DNA of 64,000 nt from a virus (IMGVR_UViG_3300021420_000016:1-64000); one strand, 5' to 3'; shown: positions 5,676-28,458, counted from the stretch's first letter. The notes: generated by a model not told the origin, from the sequence alone. Program-made: numbers and translations.

Positions 5676-7487
5676 GTGGCCGTCTACCTCGCCAACACCT
5701 TCGACGGCGGCACCAACGGCACTACGATCACCCCGGCGATCTCGGGGGGAACCTCCGGGCCGGCGTTCGACGCGGTTGTCTCCAATACTGGCAGCACCGG
5801 CGTCCTCTCCTACGACAGCACGCACGTCCTCGGTGGCCATCCGCTGGCCCTCAAAGCCGCCACAGGGGGAACCTCAACCTCGGTTTACGTGTCCTGGAGT
5901 GCATCGCTCACCGCCTCTGGCCTCCTGCAAGTGTTCTTCCGTCAGTACCTGTACTTCACCGCCAACCCTTCGGGCTCCAACGTCCGGGTGTTCAACGCAC
6001 TCACCACCGGCGCGGCCCAGTGCGGCGGCATCAACATCACCACCGCCGGCGTGGTGTCCTGCGTCATCGCCAGCGGCGGGGCCGCCACCTCCACGGTCAC
6101 CACGATCCCGCTGAACCAGTTCTTCCGCATCGAGGGCTACCTGATCGGCGACCCCTCCGTGGGTCAGCTCCAGGTCAAGCTGTTCACCACAGCGGACGCC
6201 TCCATCCCGGCTGAGACCAAAACCAGCACGGCCACCCAGAACACCACCGGCACGGTGGGCATCTGCCGGTTCGGCATCTGCACCGCCCTGACCGGCGCCG
6301 GCCCGTTCTGGATGGCTTCCCCCGGCGCGTCCGACACCGGGTACCTAGGCCCCGAGGCCCCCGTGTCCGGGATCCCGCGCACGTTTGCCGGGCCGGTGTT
6401 GCTGAACGGGCCGATGCGGGCCGCCGGGCCGCGCCGGATCTATCCCATGGAACCGTCCGGCCAGCGAGTCATCCCCGTCACCCTCCCCGCCGTTGTGACC
6501 ACCACTGGCACGATCGCCGACCAGGCATCCAAGGTGCTCGCCACCTCAGTCACCACGGCCGGCACTGCGCAAGATCGAGTATCCAAGAGCCTCGCCGCTT
6601 CGGTGACAACCACCGGATCGGTGACCAGGCAAGTATCCAGGGCCTTCACCGCCACAGTCACCGCCGCGGCCGCCGCGGCCCGCAGCCCGGCCAAGACTTT
6701 CACCGCCGCCGTCACCGCAACCGGCTCACTGGCACGGCAGGCCGGCAAGACCCTCCCCGCCGCCGTCACCACGACCAGCTCGCTCGGCCAGCAAGCCGTC
6801 AAGACTCTCGCGGCCGCCGTCACTACAACTGCTTCCCTGGCCCGCAACCCCGGCAAGACGTTCTCCGCCGCCATCACCGCGACCGCAGCGCTCGCACGCA
6901 GCCCCGGCAAGACGCTCCCGGCCACCGTGACTACCGCGGCCACCCTCGGCGCCCGCTCACTGGCCAAGACACTCACTGTGACCGTGACCGCCACCGGGTC
7001 ACTCGGCCGCACGCTCACCCGCACCTTCACTGCCACGGTGACCACCACGGCCACGTACGCCAAGGGCTACCACCGCACATTCACGGTCGCCGTGACCACC
7101 GCCGGGGCGATCCGCCGGGGCATCGGCAAGATCCTCTCCGCCGTGGTGAACACGGCCGGGGCAATCATCCACGGAAGCATCCCCGGCCCACGCCAGCCCG
7201 GCGTCCTCACCATCACCCCATACGGCCCGCTGACCGCGGTTCCCGCGATCACCCCCACAGGCGCACAGGCGGCCACAGGTGCTATCACCCCATACGGGCC
7301 GCTGGCCGCGACCGTCACGCTTGAGCCCGCAGTCGCGCAGACGGCCACGGTCACCATCACCCCCACAGGCGCGCAGGCGGCCGCGCTGACCGCCAGCGCG
7401 CCTGGACAACCGCCCGTGACCTGGGAACCCGCCCCGCCACTGGCCGCCCAGCCATCCCAGCCCGTGGTGCTCACCCCATCGGCCTGA
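5676..7487 (+). CDS. Repeat-containing fibre protein with LamG-like head
   Basis: GTG at 5676 preceded by CGGGAGGCGCTG. Residues 1-230 look like a concanavalin/LamG-type beta sandwich (MAVYLANTFDGGTNGTTITP onward, with FFRQYLYFTANP). From about residue 266 to 497 there are about twelve 18-residue repeats of the form VTTTGSLARxxGKTLxAA. A second repeat zone follows (ITPYGPLAA and ITPTGAQAA). The layout suggests a binding head with an extended shaft. It precedes the protease gene with a short gap. No chaperone-type C-terminus is seen. Confidence 0.65.
   Translation: MAVYLANTFDGGTNGTTITPAISGGTSGPAFDAVVSNTGSTGVLSYDSTHVLGGHPLALKAATGGTSTSVYVSWSASLTASGLLQVFFRQYLYFTANPSGSNVRVFNALTTGAAQCGGINITTAGVVSCVIASGGAATSTVTTIPLNQFFRIEGYLIGDPSVGQLQVKLFTTADASIPAETKTSTATQNTTGTVGICRFGICTALTGAGPFWMASPGASDTGYLGPEAPVSGIPRTFAGPVLLNGPMRAAGPRRIYPMEPSGQRVIPVTLPAVVTTTGTIADQASKVLATSVTTAGTAQDRVSKSLAASVTTTGSVTRQVSRAFTATVTAAAAAARSPAKTFTAAVTATGSLARQAGKTLPAAVTTTSSLGQQAVKTLAAAVTTTASLARNPGKTFSAAITATAALARSPGKTLPATVTTAATLGARSLAKTLTVTVTATGSLGRTLTRTFTATVTTTATYAKGYHRTFTVAVTTAGAIRRGIGKILSAVVNTAGAIIHGSIPGPRQPGVLTITPYGPLTAVPAITPTGAQAATGAITPYGPLAATVTLEPAVAQTATVTITPTGAQAAALTASAPGQPPVTWEPAPPLAAQPSQPVVLTPSA
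6475..7166 (+). repeat. About twelve 54-bp tandem repeats inside the fibre gene
   Basis: Each unit encodes 18 residues with near-constant VTTT or VTAT at the start and a GKTL/GKTF-like basic turn. The DNA has diverged between units, so this is an old protein repeat rather than a recent slippage tract. Confidence 0.7.
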
Positions 7488-7501: not shown

Positions 7502-8020
7502 ATGCGCGTCACGGTGGAAGACGGCACCGGCAAGCGAGTCGTCATCGACGGGGACGCCCCCGAGGCGGCCAAAAGCGCCTGGGACGGCGCAGGCTTCGCC
7601 GGCGTGCTCATCAAGTCCGCGCCCGAACGCCGTTACACTCTGTGCGTCGCCTACCCCGCCATGAAAGCCGACGTCAAAGTAGCCCAGGACGGCTACCGGG
7701 ACTTCGTCGGCCCCGACGCCCTCGAAGACGCCGCCTGGTCCTATCTCACCAAGGGCGCCGAAGTCGGCCTGTGGCATTCCGACGGCACCGACGGCGCCGG
7801 CACCTGCGTCGAGTCTTACATCTACCGCGGACCCGACTGGTCCATACCCGTCAAAGGCGGCACCCAGGTCGTCAAAGCGGGGGACTGGCTCGTCGGCATC
7901 GTCTGGTCGAAAGACGCCTGGCCGCTCGTCCTGAAGGGCCACATCAACGGTGTGTCCATGCAAGGCGGCGCCGCCCGCCGCCGCCCCACACCCGAATCCC
8001 TCGCCCAGCTCAGGAGGTAG
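7502..8020 (+). CDS. XkdF-like prohead protease
   Basis: ATG at 7502 after an AGAGGGGGCCGC site. The 172-residue product matches the PBSX XkdF / S78-type serine protease layout: an AYPAMKADVKVAQDGYRDFV segment, His92 in GLWHSDG, then GDWLVGIVWSKDAWPLV and GHINGVSMQG with candidate catalytic Ser152. Such proteases mature the scaffold and capsid proteins in the prohead. It directly precedes the scaffold gene, as expected. Family call is from motif recognition. Confidence 0.85.
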   Translation: MRVTVEDGTGKRVVIDGDAPEAAKSAWDGAGFAGVLIKSAPERRYTLCVAYPAMKADVKVAQDGYRDFVGPDALEDAAWSYLTKGAEVGLWHSDGTDGAGTCVESYIYRGPDWSIPVKGGTQVVKAGDWLVGIVWSKDAWPLVLKGHINGVSMQGGAARRRPTPESLAQLRR

Positions 8021-8023
8021 ACC

Positions 8024-10597
8024 ATGACCCACCCCCTGTTCGCCGGCGAAGACGAAGACGAGGCCCTCAAAGACACCGACGGCATCACCGAAATCATCCA
8101 GCTCGACCCCAGCCGCATGGACGGCGTGTTCGCACCCGCGAACGGGGCCCCATTCCTGCTCATCAAGTCCATCGCCAACAGCACGGGGGGTGCCGCGATG
8201 ACGGCCGCCGCGACCGAAACCGACATCGAACTGACGGAGGAGGCCGCCGCCGGGCCAGGCACCGAAACCGCCAAGGGGCAGGCACCACCCGCCGAAGGGG
8301 AAGCCGCCAAGGACTCCACCGACGGCGACAACGGCGAAGCGGACGAGGGCGCCGAAGGCGAAACCGACGACGACGGGGGAGCCGAAGCCGACGCTGGCGC
8401 CGCCAAAGCCGCCACCCCGGAGCCGCCGCACGTGACCAAGGCCGCGATCAAGGCCGCCCGCAGCGCTTACGAGACCGCCCGCCGCGAGTACGACGCCGCC
8501 GAGCCCACCACCAAAGGCGCCATGGACGGCACCGACGTCCTCCGCGCCCGCGCCGACTGGAACAAGTGGCGCGAACTCGGCAAATCCGAAGGCCTCGACG
8601 GCACCGAAACCGGCCGCGCCCACTGGGTCGCCAAACACCTCGCCGAGGACGCAACCCCGGAGCTCACCCTGGGCGACGAGGTGATCAAGGCCGAGGAGAG
8701 CGTCTACAAGCGCAAGTTCACCACCGCGCAGCGCCGCAAAGCCGCCAGTGCAGGCCACGCCCTGGACGACGGCAGTTACCCCATCGAAAACGCCGGCGAC
8801 CTCGACAACGCCGCCCACCTCGCCCGCTCCGGCCACGGCAACGTCGCCGGCGCCAAGCGCCTCATCGCCCGCCGCGCCAAAGAACTCGGCGTGTCCAACC
8901 CCCTGTCCGAGGACAAGGAGCCGGTGGGTGCCAGTAAGGCAGCCGAGCCTGAGATGGCCGAAGAAACCACTACCACCACTGCGGCACCCCCGCTGGACCC
9001 GGCCGAGGCGGTGGAGAAGGCCGCCGCGGCGGGACTGATCAGCCGCGAAGTCGCCGACTCCCTCCTGGCCAAGGTCAAGCGCGGCGTCCCCGCCACGACA
9101 CAGCCCGCCGGGGCGCACCGCGAGCCCGACGGCTCCTACGTCGAATCCCTCGAACACGACGCCAGCCTGCCCAGCGACAGCGACGGCAGCTCCGACCACA
9201 TCCCCGCACCCGTCGCCGAAGCCGGCACGATCCCCCCGGCGAACGCGAACACCAGCGTGATGGCCGAGCGCGCGGGCAAATCCGCCCCGTACTCGGTGCA
9301 GCGGATGCACGACGCCCTATGCCCCGCCTACGACGAAGCCGACGTGATCGAGGCCTACCCGGCACTGAAGTCCGTCATGGACGCGGTCGACGGCGTCTGG
9401 TTCGAGGCGCAGGCCGCCTGGAAGCAGGCCGAGGGCAAGGCAAAGAAAGCCGCCAAGCTGACCGCCATCGCCAAAGCCGCCGAGAGCCTCCACGACGCCG
9501 ACCCCGCCGCCCTCGCCGACGCCCGCGCCGGCCTGCGCAAGGCGTTCACCGACGCCTACCCCGACACCAAGATCCGCCCCCAGTCCGGGATCAGCCCGTC
9601 CTCATTCCACCGGTCCTGGATCACCGCAGGCCACGAAGCGAACTCCCCGGCCATCACCGGCACCCAAGCCGCCTCCCCGGCACCCCCCGCGTCCCACGTG
9701 CCCGAGCCGCAGCAGTTCCAGCGCGGCAACCTCACCGCCGGCCACGAAACCCCCTCCCCGGGCGACCACGGGCCCAACAACCCTAACCCGCCCGGATCCT
9801 CCGGCAACGACTACTACTCCACCTCCGAGCAGATGATGGCCGCCGCCGCGATGCGTTCCGTCCACGACCACATCCAGGCCACCTTCGCCGGATGCTGCCC
9901 CATGGCCCCGGCCCGCCACGCCCTCCCCACCGGCCCGGGAATGGGCGCCACCAGCACACCGGAAAAGAAGGTCCCCATGTCCATGGGAGGCATCCCCACC
10001 GTCGGCAAATCCGAAAACGGCACCCTCGATTCACAGGCCCTCGCGGACCTCGCCGCGGCCCTCGTGCAGATCGCCAAGACCGCCACCCCCGACAGTGACA
10101 GCGACGGAGACGGCAAGGCGTTCGGCGGCAACCAGGCACCCCCGTTCGGCAAGAAAAAGAAGGGCAAAGGCAAGGCGAACAAAGCAGAACTGATCGCCGC
10201 CCTCAAAGAAGCCTCCGAAGCCGGCGCCCGCGCCGCCCTCGACGCGATGAAAGCCCACGGAGACGGCGCTGCCGTCCAGGCCGTCGTCGCCGAGCAACTC
10301 CGCGAAATCGGCGCCCGATACGACTCCCAGCTCTCCGACCTCACCAAGCAGGTCGAAGAACTGGGCTCCCAGCCCGACCCGGCGCAGGCCCCCGTGCGAG
10401 GCCAAATGAGCCGGCCGGAGACCGCAGCTCCCGTGGAGAAGCGCTCCCTGATCGACGAGCACCGCGCCGCCAAAGCCGCACAGGCCGAAGCCGAGCGCGA
10501 GGCTTTCACCGACTACGTCCGCATGCAAGCGCAGTCGGCTGACCCCAAGGTCCGTTCCCGCGCCGAGGAGGTGCTTCGCACTATCCCGGCGCCCTAG
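8024..10597 (+). CDS. Capsid scaffold-like protein with DUF6582-type domain
   Basis: ATG at 8024 preceded by CAGGAGGTAGACC. The 857-residue product is acidic, Ala/Glu/Lys-rich and low-complexity, as in phage scaffolds. Around residues 235-290 it has AGHALDDGSYPIENAGDLDN and the AHLARSG / RLIARRAKELG segment, a small domain commonly found next to phage prohead proteases. A C-terminal coiled-coil-like part (residues 715-790) may dimerise or bind the capsid protein. Position between protease and capsid genes supports the scaffold role. It is unusually long for a scaffold, so part may remain in the virion. Confidence 0.7.
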   Translation: MTHPLFAGEDEDEALKDTDGITEIIQLDPSRMDGVFAPANGAPFLLIKSIANSTGGAAMTAAATETDIELTEEAAAGPGTETAKGQAPPAEGEAAKDSTDGDNGEADEGAEGETDDDGGAEADAGAAKAATPEPPHVTKAAIKAARSAYETARREYDAAEPTTKGAMDGTDVLRARADWNKWRELGKSEGLDGTETGRAHWVAKHLAEDATPELTLGDEVIKAEESVYKRKFTTAQRRKAASAGHALDDGSYPIENAGDLDNAAHLARSGHGNVAGAKRLIARRAKELGVSNPLSEDKEPVGASKAAEPEMAEETTTTTAAPPLDPAEAVEKAAAAGLISREVADSLLAKVKRGVPATTQPAGAHREPDGSYVESLEHDASLPSDSDGSSDHIPAPVAEAGTIPPANANTSVMAERAGKSAPYSVQRMHDALCPAYDEADVIEAYPALKSVMDAVDGVWFEAQAAWKQAEGKAKKAAKLTAIAKAAESLHDADPAALADARAGLRKAFTDAYPDTKIRPQSGISPSSFHRSWITAGHEANSPAITGTQAASPAPPASHVPEPQQFQRGNLTAGHETPSPGDHGPNNPNPPGSSGNDYYSTSEQMMAAAAMRSVHDHIQATFAGCCPMAPARHALPTGPGMGATSTPEKKVPMSMGGIPTVGKSENGTLDSQALADLAAALVQIAKTATPDSDSDGDGKAFGGNQAPPFGKKKKGKGKANKAELIAALKEASEAGARAALDAMKAHGDGAAVQAVVAEQLREIGARYDSQLSDLTKQVEELGSQPDPAQAPVRGQMSRPETAAPVEKRSLIDEHRAAKAAQAEAEREAFTDYVRMQAQSADPKVRSRAEEVLRTIPAP

Positions 10598-10651: not shown

Positions 10652-13600
10652 ATGATGTCTGAAAACGAAGTGGCAATCCCTTACGGGAGCGCCGCCACCC
10701 CCGTCCTGGAAAGGACGGGCACCGACACCCGCTGGCACGCCGATGCGGACGTCGAGCGTTACCGCGCCCCGGACCTGATGCTGTCGGACAAAATGCCGAC
10801 GCTGGTCAAGGGCGCAGGATATGCCCGGGTCGGCGGCAATATGCCGCTGTCCGACGACGAGCAGATCTTCCGCCGTTCCATGAAGGCGGAGGACGCTTTC
10901 CGTGCCGCCATTTCCAAGGGCGTCAACGAGCCCCGCGAGGTGCTCAAGGGCCTCAAGCCCGAATTCGCTGGGCAGTTCGCCGCCTTTATGACGGCCGCGC
11001 CACAGAACCAGGGGCTGCGGCAACTGGCCAACCAGTTCGCCTCCGCCCTGAAGGACGTCCCTGGCGTCGACCAGGACGTCCTGAAGTCCATTACCACCAC
11101 GTCGCCGCTTGGGACAGGGTTCGTGCCCTTCGATCTCGTCGCCCCGAGCTCTCTCATCTACCCTGGATGATCATGGGGCACTATGCCGTGAGGCATAGTC
11201 GCAAACCCCCGAGAATTGCTGGGACACCCACACCTACCTGCTTATGCCACAGCGTGAGGCGAAAGCCTGGCCGCGACGGCCTGAGAAATAGGCAGCAGGG
11301 GCAATCAGCAGCCGAGCCGCCCTGGCGCAAGCCGAGCGGAAGGTTCAGAGACTAGGCACGGGGGACCTGCTCGCGCAGGCCAAGGAATAGTCCGATCTGC
11401 ATGGAGACATGCAGAGCCATCCAGAAATGCGATGGCCCGCCGCAGTAAGCGGCGAGTAACAATTTTGGTGTATAGCCCTCTGCGCAACAAGCTCCCCCGA
11501 GTCCCGGGTCAGGGCGCGTCGCGCAGGCGCAAGGTCATCACCGGCGTCTCCGGCTCCCAGACCGGCCCGAGCGGCGGCAAGTTCGTCCGCCTCGGCATCC
11601 CGGAACTGGTCCAGTCCGGCGGCGCGATCGGCGGCACCAGTTCCGCAGTGAACTGGCCGCTCAACCTCCCCGGCACCGGAACCCAGGATGCCGTGGACCT
11701 CACCGTCCCTTGTCTAAACTAGGTAGGGGCCTCGCCCGGTGACGGGCGAGTGAAAACCGCGAGAACTGCTGGAACACCCGTATCACCTGCTCACGCCACA
11801 GCGTGGCCCGAAAGGGCGAGCGCGACGGCTTGAGAAGTGAGCAGCAGGGGCAATCAGCAGCCGAGGGCCTAAGGGCAACGCGCCTACGGTCAAGGTTCAG
11901 AGACTATGTACGCGGGATCTGGCATAATTGAATAATGGGCAACTGGTCAATGCGCGCCTTCGCCCCCGCCGAACAGCTTGACATCACCACCCGGTACGAC
12001 GCGGGGGAGAGCGTCAACGCTCTCCGCATCGAGTACAAGTGCGCGCCGGAAGCCATCCAGGCAACCCTGCGAGCTGCGGGAATCAAGCTGAGAACGCGGG
12101 CCGAATCGCAGCGCACCCCCCAGTTCCGTCAGCAATCGCGGGAGGCGCTGCTGCAGCGGCTCCCATGCATGCGAGGCCCGGCAACGGATACGCCTATCGA
12201 GCGGCGCCTATGCGACGCCCTGATGGCGGCGGGGATCGGATTCACAACCCAGTCCCTGCTGCTGGATCGCTACTTGGTGGATATAGAACTCCATCAGGCC
12301 CCTATCGTTCTTGAGGCCGACGGTGCGCAGCACACCCTGCGAGACCAGAGGATTAAGGACGCCGAACGCGACACCGCGCTGACTGCGGCCGGTTACCGGG
12401 TATTCCGGTTCACCGGCAGCAAGATCAACCACGACGCCGCCGTTTGCGTCAGGGAAGTCGTCGCCGCTTGCGGCCTGACGCCTGACGGCGATCCGGTCTA
12501 CGACATCCGTACACGGTTCGCCGGGCCGCTCCACCCACGCTGGACGCGGGTCAAGTTCACCTGCGAGCAGTGCGGCACGGAGTTCTGGAAGCCGCCGTCA
12601 CACCGCGCGTTTGGCCACGTCTTCTGCAAGCAGAGGTGTTACGGCGACTGGTTGCACGAACATCCTGAAGTCAACACCCACCGGCAGCGCCGCAGCCAGC
12701 GCGACTGGACGGGACTTGCCGAACTGTACGGCGCCGGGATGTCTATCAAGCAGCTAGGCATCCACTTCGGGTGCAGCAACAGGATGATCACGTCAGCAAT
12801 GCGCGACCAGAGCATCCCGGTCCGGCCAATAGGAGGCCGCCGCGTCAAGGGCGGGTTTTATGCGGCCGGGATCGCGCCATCGTAAAAGCCAGATCAAGAT
12901 ATAGTTCCGATCTTACGCGAGAGCGTGAGAGGACGGCGGAAACGACCGTCCCCGCCAGGTCATGCTGGTGAGTAACAACATGTACCGCTTCTGGGGATTG
13001 TCCGAGAACCTGAGCTGGCTCAGCCAGTTCGAGGGTTGGTCTATTTAACTGGCCCCCCTGCGGAGCGATCCGCAGGTGCAAACCGCACCGTAACGGTGAA
13101 CCCCACCGAGCTCGCCGGGGAATACCGTGGAAACCTCGCATCAGGGTTCCGTAGAGAGCAAACGTGTGGCACCTGCCACGGGGGGCTGTCCCGATGTCAA
13201 CGGGGACAGCAAACCGCAGGTGAAGTTGTGCTCCGGCCTGCACCGATGGAAAAGGTGCAGAGTCATCCAGAAATGAGATGACCCCCGCCTAAGGAATGGC
13301 GGGAGTAACAAACCGCAAGGGTTCGAGGACATTTCTGCACTGGCAAATCTTTTGCTGCTGCAGGAGTTCATGTTGAACGAAGAGGCGAGCCATCTGGGCG
13401 CCACTTCCATCGCCCTCTCCGCGCCGGCCGCGCCAACCCTCACCGCGAGGACGGCAAACACCGGAGAAACCGCGCTGACCGGTGTCACCACGAACGTCTT
13501 CGTGGAAGTCACCGCAGCCACCTTCTTCGGGGAAACCGCGGCCGGATCGTCGGCTTCCGTGGCCTGGTCCTCGGGCCAGGTTGTGGACGTGCAGATCGCA

Positions 13601-14686
13601 CCCGTCAAGGGCGCGATGTTCTACAAGATCTACACGACCACGGGGGCCTCCGCGGGCACCTACTACCTCAACGCCAACAACGTCGGCGGCCTGTACTACA
13701 CCCTCCAGGGTGCACTGCCCACCACGGGCACGCAGGCCCCGGCTTCCGATACCGGCACCTCCTCGGCCAACGACCAGGAGGGGCTGTTCTCGGTCCTGTC
13801 CGGCAACGCCGCGTCCGGCGGGTCGAACATCTATCCCGCGAACTGGGCTGCCGGTTACTTTACCCAGTCGGTTGGTGACACTCTGAAGACCTCCGTGCTG
13901 AACACGGCCCTTCAGCAGCTGTGGGACGGCACCGGCTCCGGCGTGGGGACCTATGGTTCGTACCGCGCCGACCCTGCGGAGATCATCGCCGAAGGTGGCG
14001 ACGTCGCCCGCCTGTCCAATGACATCGTGCAGCTTGGGGCTGCCACCAACTACCGCCTGTTCGTGGAGCAGTCGGAAGTGCCTGGTGTGCGCCTTGGTGC
14101 TGCCGTGTCGGAATTCCAGAATCCCGTGACGAGGTCCGTCGTCCGCGTGGTGGTCCACCCGTGGCTGCCGCAGGGCTCGGCTCTCCTGATGAGTTACACG
14201 ATGCCGTTCGCGTGGAGCAACGTCTCCAACGTGGTCGAGTTCGTGGCGGTCCAGGACTACCTCACTATGAGTAACTAGGGGCCTACGCAGAGTGATCTGC
14301 GTAGGGATGCGCACTGTTCGGGGAACCCCTCCGGAAATCACCGGGGAATCCCGAGCGTCGGCGATGCCTGCCGGCGTGTAGAGACTGTATGTGCGCCCTC
14401 TGTGTGACGGACGTAAATGCGAGGCATTACGTGCTTACGGCCGCAGAGGAAGAGACAGGCCGATCTCATGCAATGGCAAAGCATGAGAGGCTGGCAGAAA
14501 TGACCAGCCCCGCCACTTCGGTGGCGAGTAACAATATGCAGTATCTCCTGGCCCGTGATCGACGCCAGCTTCCGCTACAGCATGTTCATGCTGGGCGCGC
14601 TGGTCGTCAACGCTCCGTTCTACTGCTCGCTCATTCAGGGCCTGCAGAAGACCGACCGGTCCGGTTCCACCGGCACCTGGTCCTGA
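10652..14686 (+). CDS. HK97-fold major capsid protein, interrupted by four group I introns
   Basis: Exons by frame, homology and intron ends: 10652-11164, 11468-11710, 12983-13036, 13316-14262, 14539-14686. They join to 1905 bases, 634 residues. The ATGATG start follows TAGGAGG. The spliced junctions restore capsid-like continuity: SLIYP/VYSPLRNKLPRV, DLTVP/YRFWGLSENLSW, LSQFEG/QGFEDISAL, and QDYL/SISWPVID with the Leu codon split CT|C. Each exon read alone runs into an in-frame stop just past its 3' end. The first half of exon 4 holds an Ala/Thr-rich Ig-like insertion (residues about 290-415). The C-terminus PFYCSLIQGL is typical of actinophage capsid proteins. Junctions are predicted, not observed. 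Confidence 0.85.
11165..11467 (+). ncRNA. Group I intron 1 of capsid gene (303 nt)
   Basis: The 5' exon ends CCCT, pairing with GGGG in the intron (P1, U.G at the splice site). P2 is a perfect CTATGCC/GGCATAG stem closed by GTGA (11181-11198). Core elements: GCAATCAGCAGCCGAG (11301-11316), GGTTCAGAGACTA (11342-11354) and AATAGTCC (11386-11393), with P7 GACTA/TAGTC. The intron ends GAGTAACAATTTTG with terminal G. It carries no open reading frame of note. Confidence 0.85.
11711..12982 (+). ncRNA. Group I intron 2 of capsid gene (1272 nt, with endonuclease gene)
   Basis: 5' exon CCCT again pairs with GGGG. Core elements: GCAATCAGCAGCCGAG (11850-11865), GGTTCAGAGACTA (11894-11906) and AAGATATAGTTCC (12896-12908). 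An 8-bp stem GATCTGGC (11916-11923) with GCCAGATC (12888-12895) encloses the endonuclease gene, so the gene sits in the P8 loop. The intron ends GAGTAACAACATG. It is the closest relative of intron 1 by core sequence. Confidence 0.85.
11935..12885 (+). CDS. Intron-encoded homing endonuclease, EDxHD (Vsr-like) type
   Basis: The 316-residue product lies wholly in intron 2. Residues 20-60 form a helix-turn-helix-like part. Residues 87-165 carry the Vsr/DUF559-like nuclease pattern: Glu89 in TPIERRL, Asp116 in YLVDIEL, Glu127-Ala-Asp-Gly with His133, Asp142/146, and YRVFRFTGSKI. A zinc finger follows (C210, C213, C231, C235), then a second helix-turn-helix around 255-300 (AGMSIKQLGIHFGCSNRMI). EDxHD enzymes are known intron-borne homing endonucleases (the I-Bth0305I group). 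It has no Shine-Dalgarno sequence, and ATG at 11935 is the first start after P8. Confidence 0.85.
   Translation: MGNWSMRAFAPAEQLDITTRYDAGESVNALRIEYKCAPEAIQATLRAAGIKLRTRAESQRTPQFRQQSREALLQRLPCMRGPATDTPIERRLCDALMAAGIGFTTQSLLLDRYLVDIELHQAPIVLEADGAQHTLRDQRIKDAERDTALTAAGYRVFRFTGSKINHDAAVCVREVVAACGLTPDGDPVYDIRTRFAGPLHPRWTRVKFTCEQCGTEFWKPPSHRAFGHVFCKQRCYGDWLHEHPEVNTHRQRRSQRDWTGLAELYGAGMSIKQLGIHFGCSNRMITSAMRDQSIPVRPIGGRRVKGGFYAAGIAPS
13037..13315 (+). ncRNA. Group I intron 3 of capsid gene (279 nt)
   Basis: The 5' exon end GGGT can pair with GCCC in the intron. Core R-like element GGTTCCGTAGAGAGCA (13145-13160) and S-like GAAGTTGTGCTCC (13222-13234) form P7 GAGCA/TGCTC. The 3' part has the same CATCCAGAAATG-GATG hairpin and GGGAGTAACAA tail as intron 1. 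The end at 13315 (ACCG) is chosen because it restores FEGQGFED in the capsid protein; 13321 is the alternative in-frame choice. Confidence 0.8.
14263..14538 (+). ncRNA. Group I intron 4 of capsid gene (276 nt)
   Basis: The 5' exon end CCT pairs with GGG. P2 is CTACGCAG/CTGCGTAG. Core elements GTGTAGAGACTGT (14376-14388) and GAAGAGACAGGCC (14449-14461) resemble those of intron 3 more than 1 and 2. A P9-type hairpin CTCATGC/GCATGAG (14465-14487) precedes the shared GGCGAGTAACAA tail. The intron interrupts a Leu codon after its second base. Confidence 0.8.
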
Positions 14687-14696
14687 AACCCGGCGA

Positions 14697-14729
14697 AGGC
14701 CCGGGCCGGGCGTTCCCCGGCCCGGGCCT
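14697..14729. terminator. 14-bp GC hairpin after capsid gene
   Basis: AGGCCCGGGCCGGG (14697-14710) pairs perfectly with CCCGGCCCGGGCCT (14716-14729), loop CGTTC. It lies between the capsid gene and a converging minus-strand operon, so it probably acts in both directions. There is no clear T tract. Confidence 0.6.
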
Positions 14730-14747
14730 CCCGGCTCCCTTGATGCT

Positions 14748-16814: not shown

Positions 16815-16915
16815 GCCGCGATGATATCACGCTTGCATCCCCCCGTGTCTACCCGCTCATGGCCCGCCAGCCAAATATCACCGCCGGGATCCGGCAGGCA
16901 AGGGAGAGATCAACC

Positions 16916-17356
16916 ATGGCATCTGACGTTGCAGTCGCCGTGCCTTACGGGTCCCTGGCGCAGGGCCAGGGCGTCTACGGGACCGCCACGGGGGCGACGA
17001 CGGCCTACTCCCCGTGGGACTCCACCACCGTCACCGCCGCCGCAGGCGCGGGTGCGGGCACGTCGCCGCCGGCGCCGGTGGTGGGCACTACCCCGGCGGC
17101 GACGATGATCCGCGGGTCGGTCACGTGGGGCACCGGGACGGCCACGGCTACCGGGTCGCAGGTGTCCATCACCTTCGGGTCTACGTTCCCCACGACACCC
17201 ACGGTGGTGCTGTGCCCGACGACGATCGCGGCCGGGACGCTGAACACCTACATCACGTCGGTCGGGTCCACCGGCTTCACGGTCGCCGCCGCGGTGGCGC
17301 CAACGGTGAGCCAGGGCGCGACGGTCTACGGGGCCGCCTGGTACGCCTCCCTGTGA
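16916..17356 (+). CDS. Structural protein with H-type-lectin-like C-terminus
   Basis: ATG at 16916 follows AGGGAGAGATCAACC. The 146-residue product has a flexible N-terminus like that of the capsid protein (VAVPYGS) and a C-terminal beta domain (VSITFGSTFPTTPTVVLCPT, TGFTVAAAVAP) resembling H-type lectin modules of phage fibres. It is followed by a strong terminator and so is probably transcribed on its own at high level. A decoration protein is plausible. Confidence 0.6.
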   Translation: MASDVAVAVPYGSLAQGQGVYGTATGATTAYSPWDSTTVTAAAGAGAGTSPPAPVVGTTPAATMIRGSVTWGTGTATATGSQVSITFGSTFPTTPTVVLCPTTIAAGTLNTYITSVGSTGFTVAAAVAPTVSQGATVYGAAWYASL

Positions 17357-17456: not shown

Positions 17457-19293
17457 TTGAGGATCATATTGCATTCGAATGCACCGTGGCCCTCAACCTT
17501 AGGCTGGTTACGGAATCCAGGCGCGCATCTGGGCGCGCAAGTGGCGCGACATGGGCCACGAGGTCATCTTCAGTGCGTTCTCCGGTCTGGCGGGTTCGCC
17601 GTTGCCGTATGACGGGTTCAAGGTGCTTCCGTCGGTGTTCAACGGTGACCCGTTCGGTGCGGCGATCCTGGGGGAGCATTTCCGCCGGGAGCAGGCCGAT
17701 TTCATCATCACTTTGTGTGACATCTGGGCTTTGGAGCCGTCGCATCTGACGGGGCTGCCAGTGGCGCACTGGATGCCGGTGGACTGTGCGCCGCTGTCGA
17801 TGCGGGATGAGAACTGCCTGAAGGTGTCGGGCGCGGTGCCGATCGCGATGTCCCGGTTCGGGGAGCGGATGCTCCGCGATGCGGGTTTCGAGACGGTTCT
17901 GTACGCGCCGCATGGCATCGATTTGGATGTGTGGTCGCCGTCGCTGGACCGGGATGAGGCGCGGCGGCAGCTCGGCGTGGATGGGCTGTTCACGATCGGG
18001 ATCAATGCGGCGAACAAGGACGCGTTCCGTAAGGGCATGGCCGAGCAGTATGAGGCTTTCGCCAGGTTCCATGCGAAGCACCCGGATAGCGCGCTGCTGG
18101 TGCATTCAGTGCTGGCGGAGAAGGATTCCCTGGATCTGCGGGTGATCGAGCAGCGCCTTGGGCTGACCGGCGCGGTGCGGTATGTGGATCAGTACGCGCT
18201 GCTGACGGGGCAGGTGCCGCAGGAGCACCTGGTGAACTGGTATGCCGCCCTGGACCTGTATTCGGCGTGCTCGTTCGGCGAGGGGTTCTGCCTTCCCGCG
18301 GTGGAGGCGATGGCGTGCGGCGCGCCGGTGGTGGCGACGGACTGTTCCGCTTTGGCGGAGGATGTCGCGGCGGGGCAGTGGCTGGTAAAGGGCGAGCGAT
18401 TCTGGAATCCCACCCATGGCTCATGGTGGGTGAAGCCGGATATCGGCGGGATCGCCAAGGCGTACGAGGCCGCATACCAGAAGGGTCCCGCGTGGCAGGC
18501 GAAGCGGGGGAAGGCGCGGGCGTCAGCGGAACGGTTCGGCGTGGACCGGGTCGCGGAAGAGTACTGGGAGCCGGTGCTGGCCGCGTTGAAGGAGCGGTTC
18601 TGCCCGGCGGTGACCCTGACTGGCGCGGGGGAGCGGCCGGAGGGCGCGCCGGAGGTCTCAGTGTGTTTCGCGTCCCGCGGCCGGCCGGAGTCTCTCGCGG
18701 AGACGGTGGCGCAACTGGTCGCTTTGGCCGCTGAGCCGGACGCGATCGAGGTCCTGATCGCCGCCGACCCGGATGACGAGGCCACCCACACCGCGGCGCT
18801 GCCGCCACAGGCGCGAGTGTGGGTGGCACCGGAACGGTACGGCTACACCGGGCTGCACCGCTACCTGAATGCGCTGGCATCTCGTGCTGCCGGTGAGTGG
18901 ATTTTGTGGTGGAACGATGACATGCGGATGGTCACCCCCGGCTGGGACAAGATCATCCGCTCGAACCGGCCCGCCGTCTTGTGGCCGCATGCCAACCATG
19001 TGCATCACGCCAACATCGCCCCCGCGTGGCCGAAAGCCTGGTCGGACGCGATGGGGCACGTGTCGCCGACGACGCACATGGACACGTATCTGCAAAGGCT
19101 GGGGGAGGCGCTCGGCCGGCACGACCCGGTCGCGGTGGAGATCACCCATGACCGGGCGGATGTCACCGGGAACCACGACGACCAGACCTACGCCGAGGGG
19201 CGCAAGCTGCTTGGGCCTGAAGGCATGGTCGATGAGGTCTTCCCCTACGACCAGGTGGCCAGGGACGCGGCGGTCATCCGGGGGCTGCTGTGA
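17457..19293 (+). CDS. Fused GT4 + GT2 glycosyltransferase, frameshifted at N-terminus
   Basis: The intact frame from ATG 17551 gives 580 residues. Residues 1-370 form a GT-B (GT4-like) transferase with YAPHGIDLDVW and SCSFGEGFCLPAVEAMACG. Residues 370-580 form a GT-A (GT2-like) domain with VSVCFASRGRPESL and WILWWNDDM. Upstream, TTG 17457 in another frame encodes RIILHSNAPWPST, the usual start of this GT4 group, while the 17551 frame reads GYGIQARIWARKWRDMGHEV from 17506. A single +1 shift near 17496-17503 joins them. It heads a coupled cassette with HIT, oxygenase, methyltransferases and epimerase. Confidence 0.75.
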
Positions 19294-27945: not shown

Positions 27946-28458
27946 TCAGTAGTTGACGGGCGGCCAGCACTCCGCATAGCCGGGGGAGTACTCGTAACGG
28001 CTGGCGACCGCCCGCACGGTGCGGCAGACGCCGAAGCCCCTGACGCCGCCCATGGCGTAGTAGTGGCAGGTGACACACCCCATCTCCCGGTCGCCGAAGC
28101 CACCCGGTTTCCCGCACCTGACCACGCTGTACCCCTCGAACCGCTCACTGAGCTCTAGGCCGAGTTCGATGCGGCGCTTCGCGCTGCTGAGGATGTAGTG
28201 CTCATCCAGAATGGTCAGGTCAGCCTCGCATGCGGCGATGACTTGCCGGGGGTCATTGGCGGCCATGTGGGCGGCGATCTCGTCAAGCGTCTCCACGGTG
28301 ATCGCGTAGTCGGGATCGTCTGCGTCGGTCAGGAATCCGCCACCAAGCGCCGCCGTCCACGCCGGGTGAAATCCTCCGTCGGCCTGCGCCGCCGCTTCCG
28401 CCAGGGCCTTCCGCTCTCTGACAGCTTCCCGTAGCCACGCAACTGCCGCCTCGTTCAC
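27946..28458 (-). CDS. Cys-rich actinophage hypothetical protein
   Basis: GTG at 28458 overlaps the stop of the upstream minus gene. The 170-residue product begins with a helical, Ala/Glu-rich part (AVAWLREAVRERKALAEAA), then HMAANDPRQVIAACEADLTI and a Cys segment (MGCVTCHYYAMGG). The layout recalls a DUF6221-type family of Streptomyces and its phages, from memory. It sits as a minus-strand insertion between tail tube and tail chaperone genes. Confidence 0.6.
   Translation of the reverse strand: MNEAAVAWLREAVRERKALAEAAAQADGGFHPAWTAALGGGFLTDADDPDYAITVETLDEIAAHMAANDPRQVIAACEADLTILDEHYILSSAKRRIELGLELSERFEGYSVVRCGKPGGFGDREMGCVTCHYYAMGGVRGFGVCRTVRAVASRYEYSPGYAECWPPVNY

Follow-up and report, generated by a model that had tools for sequence, protein, structure and literature searches.

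Four predicted group I introns in a capsid-like phage gene, and the many intron sites of its gene family

Results

An interrupted gene among head genes

The 64,000-nt stretch of viral DNA analyzed here (IMGVR_UViG_3300021420_000016:1-64000; hereafter, the window) begins with a gene for a Mu F-like head protein (positions 1-555). Further downstream it encodes an XkdF-type head maturation protease (7502-8020, plus strand; PF14550, E=8e-14), followed by an 857-aa ORF with no assignment (8024-10597), which occupies a scaffold-like position between the protease and a capsid-like gene at 10652-14686. Ahead of the protease, a 603-aa ORF (5676-7487) contains a short Ala/Thr-rich repeat like VTTTGSLARQAGKTLPAA in many copies and has no Pfam match. 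Nine nucleotides past the stop codon of the capsid-like gene lies a very GC-rich, near-perfect hairpin (14695-14731), which gives a weak, sub-threshold sR035 match and looks like the transcription terminator of this gene. Beyond it are a protein with a weak H-type lectin match (16838-17356) and, directly after that, a phage-borne 580-aa glycosyltransferase with GT4-type and GT2-type domains (17551-19293).

The capsid-like gene is spread over five segments of the plus strand: exon 1 (10652-11164, 513 nt), exon 2 (11468-11710, 243 nt or 81 codons), exon 3 (12983-13036, 54 nt), exon 4 (13316-14262, 947 nt, its last base being the second of a codon), and exon 5 (14539-14686, 148 nt, including the stop codon). 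Joined, they amount to 1905 nt, stop codon included, and encode 634 residues with no internal stop, starting at the ATG at 10652 or, equally possibly, at a second ATG at 10655. The four spacers measure 303 nt (intron 1, 11165-11467, family X), 1272 nt (intron 2, 11711-12982, family X), 279 nt (intron 3, 13037-13315, family Z), and 276 nt (intron 4, 14263-14538, family Y); introns 1, 3, and 4 are free of ORFs and intron 2 holds one in its P8 loop. All four are preceded by a U and closed by a G, and the exons before them run into in-frame stops that end 6, 12, 12, and 16 nt into introns 1-4, respectively. A sequence-only reading of the same DNA had proposed these five exons, with the border nucleotides, open segments that run into stops, and an exon 3 of 18 codons. 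The same junctions were recovered, to the base, when the unspliced DNA was aligned with a profile built from 57 intact relatives (A2), the sole constraint being that an intron must lie between a U and a G. Without the U|G rule, homology narrows each junction to 1-3 positions, and for all 16 introns in near relatives the best-scoring options include the U|G choice.

Comparison with relatives shows that the exons belong to one protein. The 634-residue product aligns over its full length with many uninterrupted relatives, and PHROG 13692 matches residues 127-621 (E=1e-63), spanning all four junctions. When the product was searched by tblastn against 23 related IMG/VR loci, the gene was found in one piece at 15 and with introns at 8, one of these eight being a near-identical second contig and two others near copies of each other. 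Because 15 of the 23 loci carry the gene uninterrupted, its split state in the window is not a matter of chance. The second contig (3300050821_007239) is 99.94-99.97% identical over 10.9-14.6 kb and has the same arrangement, which speaks against an assembly artefact in which intron copies of several phages were stitched together in one gene, as might be suspected of metagenomic contigs from samples where both intact and intron-bearing relatives are found. The exon and intron borders are exact, and L004, L011, L185, and other loci have comparable genes with different sets of introns; such an artefact is therefore highly improbable.

Group I features of the four spacers

RF00028, the general group I model of Rfam, matched intron 1 in full (11155-11414, 55.2 bits), the sole intron of the four to reach the cut-off, and intron 2 weakly, in its P4-P7 part (11767-11906, 20.8 bits, E=0.039). 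A nearly ORF-free intron of L004 at the site of intron 2 scored 59.4 bits with this model, and introns 3 and 4 gave no Rfam match in the RF00028 scan. The cores of introns 3 and 4 were aligned with those of six relatives (A3) on a structure consisting of P3, P4, P5, P6, P8, and a P7 pseudoknot. In this alignment, 97.1% of cells are paired and 21 of 35 pairs have changed on both sides; P7, for example, differs between families Y and Z, with CUG/CAG replaced by GCA/UGC. None of 500 shuffles reached either value, and slid versions dropped to 32-42% paired, a control that is favored by the structure having been derived partly from the tested sequences, as the two-sided changes are not. A covariance model trained on relatives only, with introns 3 and 4 excluded (R1, from alignment A4), matched intron 4 at 14305-14462 (155.5 bits, E=1.8e-45) and intron 3 at 13079-13235 (91 bits, E=4.6e-26); its next-best match in the window scored 13.8 bits and fell on intron 1 itself. 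Scans of the 154-kb record with R1 and RF00028, which introns of other types could escape, returned the four introns of the capsid-like gene and none elsewhere. Thus, every detected intron sits in one gene.

Pairing with the flanking exons was scored over 46 introns of the gene family described below: P1 plus P10 averaged 11.0 with each intron's own exons versus 8.56 (sd 0.32) with swapped ones. Within the window, intron 1 has a CCCU/GGGG P1 and a P10 of 3 nt, and intron 2 has a P1 together with a 4-bp P10 (GGUA/UACC). Intron 4 shows the weakest P1/P10 in the window, with a short P1 of three plain pairs and a P10 that needs a bulge. The P1 pairings of introns 1 and 2 are interchangeable, CCCU with GGGG, and skipping of exon 2, which would stay in frame at 243 nt, is thus conceivable, as known from phage Twort (see Discussion).

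Intron 3 has a relative with demonstrated splicing. By blastn, it matches mycobacteriophages over 74% of its length at 69% identity (E=4e-12). End to end, it is 68% identical to an intron in a tail gene of phage BAKA, which scores 68.7 bits with R1; both are preceded by a U and share the 3' end GGAGTAACAAACCG. The BAKA record annotates this segment (28,186-28,450) as a possible group I intron, and its splicing was shown by RT-PCR (PMC3706429).

The earlier claim of four group I introns in one gene thus gains support from intact homologues, covariation, the independent model R1, the fit of P1 and P10, and a relative of intron 3 whose splicing was proven by RT-PCR, and all four spacers are very probably group I introns removed by splicing. 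The cores that the sequence-only reading had noticed in every spacer were recognized by RF00028 in introns 1 and, weakly, 2, and by R1 in introns 3 and 4. The Rfam group I scan that it had proposed reached the cut-off in intron 1, was weak in intron 2, and missed introns 3 and 4.

Signs that the gene functions

When the exons were compared with four intact relatives, dN was well below dS in each one that allowed dS to be estimated. Across the gene family, reading on in the frame of the upstream exon meets a stop within 24 nt for 40 of 46 introns, versus 17 and 9 for the other two frames, as would be expected if translation must stay away from the ribozyme. The purifying selection on the exons, together with intact, covarying cores and a second contig of matching structure, is hard to reconcile with a decaying gene whose spacers no longer splice, the phage relying on another capsid gene or on the fragments. 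Some P1 helices are indeed short, but no start of its own is evident in any of exons 2-5, exon 3 comprises 18 codons, and we consider decay very unlikely. Inteins or ribosome bypassing, both of which occur in phages, might stand in for RNA splicing; yet every spacer has a group I RNA core and an in-frame stop no more than 16 nt from its start, and the spacers, at 276-1272 nt, far exceed the roughly 50 nt bypassed in T4 gene 60. We give these mechanisms almost no weight and take RNA splicing as the working explanation.

Identity of the product

Position among head genes and weak fold and profile matches suggest that the interrupted gene most likely encodes a major capsid protein of the SU10/SPO1-like kind. 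The SU10_MCP profile (PF17236) matches the product weakly (E=0.0004, below its cut-off) and gives weak matches in 6 of 57 relatives. With a structure predicted for the intact relative L008 from 57 sequences (mean pLDDT 67, pTM 0.62), the first eight PDB matches in Foldseek were all SPO1 or SU10 capsid chains, the best at E 0.0065 and with low TM-scores. A sequence search for relatives with a solved structure found none that was credible, and PHROG 13692 is annotated as of unknown function. The weakness of the direct capsid matches and this annotation would equally suit introns that are real and spliced but interrupt the gene of some other abundant head protein. We regard that as unlikely, given that the gene comes after the head protease and the scaffold-like ORF, that capsid chains fill the top eight fold matches, and that the product is of fitting size and strongly conserved.

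The HK97-like capsid assignment of the sequence-only reading is therefore likely when head-gene neighbors and the first-ranked SPO1/SU10 folds are taken together, the direct profile and fold matches being weak. A suggested link to actinophage capsids did not materialize: matches among proteins of cultured phages are partial and come only from Brevundimonas and Thermoanaerobacterium phages. A host search in genome contigs yielded one 7.9-kb contig binned with Armatimonadetes, which is unusable as host evidence.

Many intron sites in one gene family

A survey of the capsid-like family revealed at least 46 introns at 29 or more sites, with as many as five in one gene; several loci are truncated where the contig or the data end, and their intron numbers are minima. 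In the near relatives, introns interrupt this gene at other positions: there are five in L004, three in L011, and one in each of the others. The related capsid gene of L004 (3536-6963) has one group I intron more than the window; its introns lie at positions 142, 221, 552, 565, and 579 of the profile, and two of its exons measure 38 and 42 nt. Even shorter exons occur, each with a group I intron of about 300 nt on either side: one of 16 nt in L185 (4143-4158, minus strand), within the peptide WEMTMV, and one of 19 nt in L167 (926-944).

The motif GTAACA, which was not imposed on the search, occurs within the last 25 nt of 44 of the 46 introns. The 29 sites lie in conserved stretches: the flanking columns have a mean conservation of 0.82 versus 0.66 overall, and none of 100,000 random sets was as high, although the sites cluster and so do not amount to 29 independent draws. 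Among 32 intact controls, three gave a spurious intron call, each of 180-186 nt in a variable domain and none at any of the 29 sites. Three calls from the spliced alignments (the first in L192, the third in L155, and the first in L175) were dropped as spurious.

A family X core-pattern scan of IMG/VR, blind to the gene, found at least 120 contigs, and among the 120 listed, the capsid-like family lies at the intron in 14. The corresponding family Y scan found six contigs, five of which have the intron in a capsid-like gene. A family Y intron in L232 (4381-4536, minus strand; R1, 132.7 bits) lies in a contig in which no capsid match was found, indicating that family Y also lives elsewhere.

Mosaic introns and a predicted endonuclease

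Introns of this family appear to exchange parts. Intron 2 of L235 (12175-12510), at the same site as intron 2 of the window, has a guide/P2 module 97.5% identical to it over 40 nt and a different catalytic core, an apparent module swap. Likewise, intron 3 of the window and intron 1 of L121, which belongs to family Y and sits at another site, have guide/P2 modules that are 97% alike over 33 nt. The four family X cores found at the intron 2 site do not form one clade (AU test, p=0.0015); the family X core tree is mostly unresolved, and its reading in terms of transposition goes no further than this test. Core similarity averages 0.708 within the same gene, 0.701 between unrelated introns, and 0.757 at the same site. 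Since cores from one gene are no closer than unrelated ones, most introns seem to have arrived separately and swapped parts. Recent multiplication inside one gene was considered as the main route and rejected on the same comparison; introns 1 and 2 of L011 and introns 4 and 5 of L155 are exceptions to the dissimilarity within genes.

Between the P8 strands of intron 2 lies a 316-aa ORF (11935-12885, plus strand) that matches PF04480 (E=2e-13). This DUF559 / MTES_1575 (Vsr-like) protein is predicted to be a homing endonuclease. Peptide patterns used to search for its relatives found only the near-identical second contig. In intron 2 of L004, about 28 residues from near the C-terminal end of this endonuclease are left, a usual sign of endonuclease loss.

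Discussion

We hold with high confidence that one late structural gene, most likely that of the major capsid protein, has acquired four self-splicing group I introns by independent arrivals. Mechanistically, this is ordinary group I splicing carried out four times. Once transcribed, every intron would adopt the usual core, with P3-P8 and P4-P6 around the P7 pseudoknot. Its internal guide would pair with the U-ending exon (P1), exogenous guanosine would cut after that U, and the freed exon would attack after the terminal G of the intron, aligned by P10. Four such reactions would bring the five exons into one mRNA for the 634-residue subunit, and the in-frame stop within the first 6-16 nt of each intron would keep ribosomes off the ribozyme. 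The predicted Vsr-like endonuclease could spread intron 2 to intron-free copies; the three ORF-less introns probably came in via recombination, endonucleases acting in trans, or reverse splicing. For the window's own introns, we infer splicing, endonuclease activity, and route of spread alike.

One tentative reading, which we put forward as a possibility rather than as our expectation, is that the gene family serves as an arena for introns, whose catalytic cores and targeting modules (the guide sequence together with P2) recombine freely. If so, the targeting module would stay at a site as cores of one family give way to those of another, and introns without ORFs, though they encode no endonuclease, could persist and spread to further sites of one gene. 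Whatever the route, the family offers a natural series of one gene with anywhere from 0 to 5 introns, with 29 sites and many intact relatives, in which to follow how group I introns gain sites. It also raises the questions of why introns are tolerated in a gene that is probably among the most strongly expressed of a phage and how exons of 16-54 nt survive amid competing splice sites. Since two of the four introns escape the general group I model of Rfam, environmental viromes probably hold more intron-split capsid genes than their annotation shows.

The sequence-only reading knew of no described capsid gene with four introns, but a precedent exists: the MCP gene of the crAss-like (Zeta group) phage OLRF01000054 was reported in five fragments in 2021 (Yutin et al. 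2021, PMC7886860). Its four intervening segments, three of which have group I intron domains, were described in silico (PMC7886860). A capsid gene with four intervening segments (PMC7886860) and genes with up to three introns in Twort and the Bastillevirinae (PMC11878797) were thus already known; in the open-access literature, we did not find descriptions of a capsid family with so many sites, of exons this short, or of targeting modules exchanged between intron families. OLRF01000054 differs from the window in belonging to gut Bacteroidetes phages, in having introns that were identified by their endonuclease domains, and in that no multi-site family survey was given for its capsid gene (PMC7886860). 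In the window, three of the four introns lack an ORF, and it was RNA structure that revealed them.

In Staphylococcus phage Twort, orf142 likewise has several group I introns in one gene and a risk of exon skipping (Landthaler and Shub 1999, as cited in PMC11878797); as presented there, it is a different gene with three introns, in a phage of low-GC Gram-positive bacteria. The DNA polymerase and terminase introns of the Bastillevirinae (PMC11878797) are a further case of conserved phage genes invaded repeatedly by group I introns; there, no gene has more than three, and the genes concerned encode enzymes. The mycobacteriophages provide further relatives: the tail-gene intron of BAKA and Optimus is a homologue of intron 3, present as one intron per gene, and LittleE has one related intron in a capsid gene, which belongs to a different capsid family and is not a four-intron gene like the one described here (PMC3706429).
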